Below, piece by piece: positions 16,684 to 18,411 of a stretch of 39,255 nt of DNA. Made by a program: the position numbers and the translations under genes. The notes under the pieces were generated by a model. The model had not been told where the DNA came from, did not search any database, and saw nothing but the letters and a program-made list of their open reading frames with translations. Within the stretch, counting starts at the first letter, position 1. Every line of letters starts with the position of its first letter. Source of the DNA: Terriglobia bacterium (GTDB lineage Bacteria; Acidobacteriota; Terriglobia; Terriglobales; Acidobacteriaceae); the NCBI GenBank assembly GCA_021325035.1, contig JAJPHW010000080.1, positions 1-39,255 of the forward strand. The letters are read 5' to 3'.

Positions 16684-17565
16684 ATGCTCAAAGACACTTT
16701 GGAACAAGGAAGAATCCTCGCGGATTCAGCATTAGAGCGTCTTTTGCCGCCCGAGACGGCACGGCCGGCGTCCATTCATAAAGCCATGCGGCATAGCGTT
16801 TTCGCGGGTGGAAAACGCATTCGCCCCATCTTGTGCATGGAAGCGGGAAGCATGATTGCCGGGGCGCGGCCAGCGGGAATCGAAAATCTTGGAGCGGCGC
16901 TTGAAATGCTGCACACCTATTCGCTGATCCACGATGATTTGCCAGCCCTTGACAATGACGATTTGCGACGAGGGCGTCCCACATGCCATAAAGTTTTTGG
17001 CGAGGCAATTGCAATCCTGGCGGGCGACGCTTTGCAGACACAAGCCTATGAAGTGTTGGCGATGTTGAATTGTCCTCCCATGGCACGCGTGAAGATCATC
17101 GAAGAGATCGCCCGTGGCACAGGCACTCTGGATGGCATGATTGGTGGCCAGGTGGTGGATCTTGAAGCCGAGCATACGAAGCCGAATCTGGATACGCTCG
17201 AATATATTCACCGGTCGAAAACCGCAGCTTTGATAACGGCGAGCGTGGTCAGCGGAGGACTTTACGCTGGTGCCGATGATGCGGCTGTGGCCAAGTTGCG
17301 GACCTTTGGGCAGTCCATCGGGTTAGCGTTTCAGATTGTGGATGATGTGCTGGACATCACCCAAACATCTGAACAGCTGGGCAAAACAGCGGGCAAAGAT
17401 ACGGCGGCCGAGAAAGCTACATACCCAGCATTATTTGGAGTTGAAGAGTCCCTGAAGAGAGCTGATGCGCTGGTAGAATCTGCATTTGCTGCAATAGCTA
17501 GTTTCGGCGAAAGAGCCACCACGCTGAAAGAGTTGGCACGTTTCCTGGTAGAGCGAAAAAAGTAA
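16684..17565 (+). CDS. ispA: Polyprenyl (farnesyl/geranylgeranyl) diphosphate synthase
   Basis: This 293-residue enzyme condenses isopentenyl diphosphate with allylic diphosphates for quinone, undecaprenyl or carotenoid synthesis. The first Asp-rich motif is DDLPALD at 84-90, and the second is DDVLD near 218-222. GGKRIRP (42-48) binds the diphosphate. The residues before the first motif (LEMLHTYSLIHDD) fit a short-chain, C15-C20 product. ATG 16684 is chosen over the upstream TTG at 16666 because the N-terminus MLKDTLEQGR fits the family. A TATACT box ends 8 bases before this ATG, so a leaderless mRNA is possible. The intergenic gap to crcB holds a fluoride riboswitch. Confidence 0.93.
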   Translation: MLKDTLEQGRILADSALERLLPPETARPASIHKAMRHSVFAGGKRIRPILCMEAGSMIAGARPAGIENLGAALEMLHTYSLIHDDLPALDNDDLRRGRPTCHKVFGEAIAILAGDALQTQAYEVLAMLNCPPMARVKIIEEIARGTGTLDGMIGGQVVDLEAEHTKPNLDTLEYIHRSKTAALITASVVSGGLYAGADDAAVAKLRTFGQSIGLAFQIVDDVLDITQTSEQLGKTAGKDTAAEKATYPALFGVEESLKRADALVESAFAAIASFGERATTLKELARFLVERKK

Positions 17566-17606
17566 CCTTCCACTTGTAGGAATTTGTGATAAAACATTTT
17601 TGTAAT

Positions 17607-17684
17607 GGCGATGGAGTTCGCCCTAACCGCCTGAACCGGAAGTGATGGTACTGGCTAATAACTCCTACAACTTTTTGTAGGGAG
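17607..17684 (+). promoter_or_regulatory. Fluoride riboswitch (crcB motif) with translational expression platform
   Basis: The sequence carries the crcB-motif signature: GGCGATGGAGTTCGCC (17607-17622), CTAACCGCC (17623-17631), a variable arm, then GGCTAATAACTCCTAC. GGAGTT (17613-17618) is complementary to AACTCC (17660-17665), giving the aptamer pseudoknot. Downstream, CTCCTACAA (17662-17670) can instead pair with TTGTAGGGAG (17675-17684), which contains the ribosome-binding site of crcB (start GTG 17694). Fluoride binding should hold the CTCC strand in the pseudoknot and free the site, turning translation on. There is no T-run, so control is more likely translational than by termination. Confidence 0.92.
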
Positions 17685-17693
17685 AACTCTATC

Positions 17694-18080
17694 GTGAAAG
17701 AACAAATCGGCAATCTGCTGATCATCTCACTGGGCGCGATTTTCGGCGCCAATGCCCGCTATCTCATCAGCCGCTTTTCAGTCAGGGTAGTCGGTTCGAC
17801 ATTTCCCTGGGGGACTCTGTTTATTAATGTCGTAGGAAGCGCAATTGTCGGATTCTTTATGATTTACGCGAGCGAGAGGGTACTGATTGATCCACGCTGG
17901 CGATTGCTCGTGGTTGTCGGATTTTGCGGAGCATTCACCACTTTTTCAAGCTATGCGTTTGAAAGCATGGCGCTGTTTGAGCAAGGGCAATGGCATTTGA
18001 TGGCGGCAAATGTTATTGGCAGCAATCTTTTGTGCCTGGCAGGAGCGGTTGCAGGAATGGCACTGGCGAGGGTGCTATAA
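17694..18080 (+). CDS. crcB: Fluoride channel CrcB/Fluc
   Basis: The 128-residue, four-helix membrane protein is a Fluc channel that lets fluoride leave the cell. Matching motifs are FGANARYLIS near 17-26, the GTLFINVVGSAIVG stretch near 41-54 with the conserved pore Asn, and FCGAFTTFSSYAFE near 79-92 carrying the Phe-box and the Na+-site Gly/Thr region. Translation starts at GTG 17694, nine bases after GGGAG. The fluoride riboswitch immediately upstream confirms the function. The DUF190 gene starts one base after the stop codon, so the genes form an operon. Fluc works as an antiparallel dimer, and only one crcB gene is present here, consistent with a homodimer. Confidence 0.97.
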   Translation: MKEQIGNLLIISLGAIFGANARYLISRFSVRVVGSTFPWGTLFINVVGSAIVGFFMIYASERVLIDPRWRLLVVVGFCGAFTTFSSYAFESMALFEQGQWHLMAANVIGSNLLCLAGAVAGMALARVL

Positions 18081-18081
18081 A

Positions 18082-18411
18082 ATGCCAGATGGGATGGCGG
18101 TACAGATCACAATTTATCTAACTGAGGGCGACCGCTGGCATGGTAAGCCAATGTACATGGAACTTCTGAACTACCTGCGCAAAGAGAATGCCAACGGGGC
18201 GATTGCTTTGCATGGAGTGGCCGGATTTCTAGGGCGCCACCGCGTGGAGACCAGCCACTTAGTGGACGCAGGCGGAAAATTGCCCGTCGTCATTATTTTT
18301 GTGGATACGGATGAGCATGTAACGCGACTGCTGCCAACCATCAAAGAAATGGCCGCAAATCGATTAATCGTCCGCGAGAATGTCGTCATTGAACAAGGAA
18401 ACCTCGCCTGA
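18082..18411 (+). CDS. DUF190 PII-like protein
   Basis: From ATG 18082 the product is 109 residues. The family is a ferredoxin-like, PII-related fold (for example Thermotoga TM0021), usually trimeric. Features seen are ITIYLTEGDRWHGKPMYMELLNYLRKENANGAIALHGVAGFG-like segments near 8-50, and IIFVDTDEHVTRLLPTIKEM near 72-91. DUF190 genes are often found beside crcB, suggesting a role in fluoride or ion signalling, though the ligand is not established. Here it starts one base after the crcB stop codon. An upstream in-frame ATG at 18010 lies inside crcB and is not supported. bshB1 begins at the base after its stop. Confidence 0.9.
   Translation: MPDGMAVQITIYLTEGDRWHGKPMYMELLNYLRKENANGAIALHGVAGFLGRHRVETSHLVDAGGKLPVVIIFVDTDEHVTRLLPTIKEMAANRLIVRENVVIEQGNLA

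Follow-up and report, generated by a model that had tools for sequence, protein, structure and literature searches.

A fluoride riboswitch before crcB in a Terriglobia bacterium, with an initiation region that may hold both aptamer strands

The expression platforms of fluoride riboswitches have been worked out mainly for the terminator types. In transcriptional fluoride switches the aptamer and the expression platform share a pseudoknot strand (PMC11077080, PMC13273304), and in the Bacillus cereus crcB switch the sequence tract of the pseudoknot also builds the competing fold, a terminator hairpin (PMC11077080). Binding of fluoride locks the docked pseudoknot in this riboswitch class (PMC8752731). 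In Pseudomonas syringae and Burkholderia pseudomallei, the change in intrinsic termination in vitro is 0% for both fluoride riboswitches, and translational control is presumed (PMC13273304).

The window analysed here is a stretch of 39,255 nucleotides, one contig of a Terriglobia bacterium whose 3.9 Mb genome carries a single match to the fluoride riboswitch family, RF01734. The gene order in the window is a homocysteine methyltransferase-MTHFR fusion, exonuclease VII small subunit, an unassigned ORF, polyprenyl synthase, crcB, DUF190, and PIG-L. The polyprenyl synthase stop (17565) is followed by a full-length fluoride aptamer and then by the GTG start of crcB (17694; Table 1). The closest named relatives of this CrcB are from Acidobacteriota MAGs (Acidobacteriales / Terriglobales). 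DUF190 follows crcB almost without a gap and probably belongs to the same operon; of 91 loci inspected, 82 have it in the neighbourhood of crcB. Read-through from the upstream gene is possible; the aptamer-crcB-DUF190 module is, however, retained at loci where that gene was not detected upstream. The locus resembles Bacillus cereus crcB in its RF01734 class, its P1, P3 and 6-bp pseudoknot, and the expectation that fluoride turns the gene on. Unlike that switch it has no terminator, and in the proposed competing fold the start-codon region takes hold of the aptamer 5' strand (P1 and pseudoknot loop) as well. The absence of intrinsic termination and the presumption of translational control are shared with the Pseudomonas syringae and Burkholderia pseudomallei switches (PMC13273304).

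Judged by its sequence, the RNA upstream of crcB is a genuine RF01734 fluoride riboswitch aptamer. Its covariance-model score exceeds the gathering score; it has P1 (GGCG/CGCC), a P3 longer than the consensus, and a 6-bp pseudoknot joining the P1 loop, which bears the 5' strand GGAGUU (17613-17618), to the 3' strand; and it sits before a fluoride-related gene (CrcB, PF02537). A first-pass annotation had already proposed a fluoride riboswitch that controls translation of crcB. The riboswitch is borne out by the score of 50.8 bits and the PF02537 gene downstream, and the translational control is probable; the aptamer 3' strand can pair with the ribosome-binding site. No terminator-like site was found in 17400-18200, and translational control is thus the simplest reading of the leader. 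The segments on which the annotation built its model, TTGTAGGA (17574-17581), TCCTACAA (17663-17670), TTGTAGGGAG (17675-17684) and GGAGTT (17613-17618), all lie exactly where it put them. It had the CTCC of the middle segment, TCCTACAA, join the pseudoknot; the UCC at 17663-17665 is indeed shared, and the rest falls outside AACUCC (17660-17665). The middle segment is close to the 3' edge that is consensus in every fluoride aptamer (ACUCCUAC in Rfam), and its occurrence here is therefore unremarkable. What a translational fluoride switch would require is a complement of this edge that overlaps the Shine-Dalgarno (SD) sequence.

Table 1. Features of the crcB leader and the genes behind it, in coordinates of the window
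Feature	Position	Strand	Basis
Upstream TTGTAGGA copy, judged a chance match	17574..17581	+	In 0/79 relatives; chance frequency; pairing probability 0.00
Likely extended -10 element TGTGATAAAAC (hexamer TAAAAC, 17590-17595)	17585..17595	+	Inferred from comparison with relatives
Fluoride riboswitch aptamer, RF01734	17598..17674	+	50.8 bits vs gathering score 34; E 2.4e-11; model full length 1-64
Aptamer P1 hairpin GGCGAUGGAGUUCGCC	17607..17622	+	Rfam model alignment and sequence
Proposed OFF-helix 5' strand CGAUGGAGUUC, common to P1 and pseudoknot loop	17609..17619	+	11-bp complement of 17684-17694
3' pseudoknot strand AACUCC	17660..17665	+	6-bp complement of 17613-17618; Rfam consensus ACUCCUAC
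Inner SD-masking hairpin, UCCUACAA (17663-17670) with UUGUAGGG (17675-17682)	17663..17682	+	Pair probabilities 0.38-0.90
Shine-Dalgarno GGGAG	17680..17684	+	9 nt before GTG start; G/A-rich peak at -14 to -9 in relatives
Proposed OFF-helix 3' strand GAACUCUAUCG: last SD base, spacer, first GTG base	17684..17694	+	Register conserved over 80 leaders; relatives' consensus GAACTCCATCGTG
crcB (Fluc fluoride channel), GTG start	17694..18080	+	PF02537, E 2.7e-28
DUF190 gene	18082..18411	+	PF02641, E 3.3e-27

The longest complementarity in the leader, which the first-pass annotation did not notice, lies between CGAUGGAGUUC and GAACUCUAUCG (11 bp with one G-U), and pairs the 5' strand of the aptamer with the start-codon region (the proposed OFF helix). 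Fold prediction for the leader gives these pairs a probability of 0.99-1.00, leaves the start-codon base 17694 with an unpaired probability of 0.00 and four of the five SD bases with 0.01-0.17, and puts the OFF duplex at -14.9 kcal/mol against -6.3 for the pseudoknot duplex. Pairing of the SD and/or the start codon without ligand, which characterizes a translational riboswitch, is thereby present by prediction.

Relatives were drawn from 179 fluoride-switch loci found by genome searches, of which 80 were retained with a CrcB homologue (tblastn, at least 110 bits) that begins 40-140 bases after the aptamer start. When the start codons of these 80 family leaders are aligned, 78% of cells are paired in the exact OFF-helix register, compared with 29-49% at slides of 1-6 bases either way. 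Conservation in the spacer is 0.3-1.3 bits per column, and the adjoining linker has diverged; the segment reads GGAGAACTCCATCGTG repeatedly, beside a differing linker. We set our own thresholds for the helix (8 or more of the 10 pairs before the start codon) and for the SD hairpin. By these, 49 of the 80 leaders (about 60%) carry the helix and 31 do not; 21 of 78 have neither the helix nor a strong SD hairpin. The OFF helix is therefore not universal. On the CrcB tree, from which two leaders with wrong start-codon calls (L111 and L132) were left out, the helix label changes 14 times, against 23.7 in shuffles.

Two-sided covariation amounts to one A-U to G-C case; the aptamer strand is almost invariant, which leaves the test with hardly any power. 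Spacer changes preserve pairing in 27 instances and break it in 12 (22 distinct arm/spacer pairs), a count given no weight since the leaders had already been chosen for pairing. The evidence for the OFF helix, as drawn from these alignments, is conserved complementarity rather than covariation. GTG is the start codon in 45/49 leaders with the helix and 12/31 without it (Fisher p 5e-7, uncorrected for descent). Phylogenetically independent pairs give about 4 for an association of GTG with the helix, 0 against and 4 tied (median p 0.125, supported branches); with descent allowed for, the association is suggestive and falls short of significance on supported branches.

The aptamer 3' strand has a complement at the SD as well. 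A run of at least 7 nt in this downstream pair (TCCTACAA/TTGTAGGG) occurs in 20% of leaders (16/78) vs 2.8% of dinucleotide shuffles, run-length figures being indicative only, with initial start-codon calls wrong for about 20 leaders. The leader might then be a plain two-state translational switch, in which, as other translational riboswitches do, it closes the SD UUGUAGGGA with the 3' strand CUCCUACAA alone, and the spacer complementarity is a side effect of common descent or of preferences at initiation sites. The complementarity that this requires is present in the query and above chance in relatives, and the 3'-strand hairpin is the only obvious one in crcB leaders of other lineages. The spacer helix, however, is longer and commoner (49/80) than an SD hairpin with a run of 7 nt or more (16/78), and keeps its exact register where the linker has diverged, so that we consider masking by the 3' strand alone rather unlikely.

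Regulation at the level of transcription, by a termination event (intrinsic or Rho-dependent) to which masking of the initiation site would only contribute, has precedents: fluoride switches of other phyla (L201, L203, L206, L214, L237) have hairpins followed by U runs when read by eye, and translational masking is known in general to be coupled to Rho in other riboswitches, a subject on which PMC13273304 cites a paper. The leader, however, has no terminator that we could find; its U run at 17672-17676 falls where the SD hairpin has its loop region, and no U run follows the OFF hairpin. Termination is accordingly judged improbable here.

The first-pass annotation had the middle segment pair with either neighbour, and only the downstream half of this holds above chance in relatives, the upstream pair being at chance. 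That the upstream TTGTAGGA serves as a third strand competing for the middle segment, or closes an outer helix, is very improbable: it is an exact 8-nt complement and its isolated duplex is about as stable as the SD hairpin (-9.3 vs -9.2 kcal/mol), but it has no counterpart in the 79 other family leaders, occurs at chance frequency, pairs with the middle segment at a probability of 0.00 in the full-leader fold, and lies upstream of the likely -10 element and the probable transcript start. Upstream runs, counted in the 45 bases before P1 as stretches that complement the aptamer 3' strand, reach at least 7 nt in 1/80 leaders (2.8% expected) and at least 8 nt in 1/80 (0.7% of shuffles), the one leader being the query itself and the lengths again indicative. 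The two closest leaders, L064 and L099 (CrcB identity 74 and 73%, grouped with the query at 100/99 support), have upstream runs of 5 only. The conservation in relatives that the annotation had proposed to look for is thus not there, and TTGTAGGA is probably a coincidence. A further partial copy, TTGTAAT (17600-17606), stands right before P1; no model considered here needs it.

The position of the promoter bears on the same segment. TGnTA is found 12 to 32 bases before P1 (mostly 15-21) in 38/80 leaders; shuffles give 16% and an upstream control gives 6/80. The motif TGTGRTAAAA recurs in relatives. A simple sigma-70 scan detected no promoter before the aptamer and no -35 consensus. The comparison with relatives suggests that the transcript likely starts near 17602. 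A transcript starting there would not include 17574-17581, so TTGTAGGA is probably outside the main transcript.

These observations are best accommodated by a two-state translational ON switch for fluoride, in which the initiation region holds both aptamer strands, and we consider this reading probable. Without fluoride, 17609-17619 would form 11 bp with 17684-17694, a segment that runs from the SD end through the spacer to the first GTG base, and the aptamer 3' strand (17663-17670) would pair with the SD region (17675-17682). The ribosome would be excluded from crcB, and probably also from DUF190 behind it. With fluoride and Mg2+, P1 and the GGAGUU/AACUCC pseudoknot would be stabilized, freeing the SD and start codon for translation of crcB. 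Because the pseudoknot needs both aptamer strands, both masks would be lost together; and since fluoride locks the docked pseudoknot (PMC8752731), the SD and the start codon would be freed together. The upstream TTGTAGGA would have no role. In a constrained model of the ON state, pairing between SD and spacer (17677-17682 with 17687-17692) is still available, and this residual hairpin could lower expression.

Fluoride switches can be far more numerous in other genomes of the same family. G481 has 18 matches, and a stretch of about 60 kb on one contig (1434895-1495344) contains 17 of these; G443 has 14, with 13 on one contig (L260-L289). They precede genes for inorganic pyrophosphatase, enolase, CLC-type transporters and others, the proteins being judged by eye, and the clusters are possibly a fluoride-resistance island. 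At four further loci in the family (L127, L129, L139, L142), similar short reading frames follow the switch and there is no obvious fluoride exporter. Two of these frames were translated, and both end in LIAVRRC; some genomes of this set carry 4-6 copies of the fluoride switch.

Leaders from outside the family show how far the design extends among the sampled genomes, to which the spacer comparison applies. Other Acidobacteriota leaders (L192, L193, L194, L246) resemble the query in having an RF01734 aptamer and a CUCCUAC 3' strand complementary to GUAGGAG or GUAGGGG before crcB; unlike the query, they are without a GAACUCCAUCG-like spacer (by eye). In crcB leaders of other lineages and phyla, also read by eye, 3'-strand hairpins are present, several with U runs, and no GAACTCCATCG spacer or OFF helix was seen. 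Such pairing in fluoride switches was not found in the main text of the openly available literature searched. Because leaders of other lineages show 3'-strand hairpins and none shows the GAACTCCATCG spacer, the expression platform looks like a lineage-specific variant within a known riboswitch class, with an ordinary aptamer, gene and logic. More tentatively, and in our judgement at slightly under an even chance, this Acidobacteriota lineage may have evolved a platform whose spacer between SD and start codon copies the P1 strand and pseudoknot loop as their reverse complement. The initiation site would then hold both aptamer strands at once, and the choice of GTG would be part of the helix (C17609-G17694).

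Dozens of natural leaders thus share a translational design kept in a single register, and in this design the ligand-stabilized pseudoknot and the start codon would compete for the same strand. The variants with and without the helix are a ready set for asking if holding both aptamer strands tightens the switch. The leaders also suggest that the identity of a start codon can be selected for RNA pairing.
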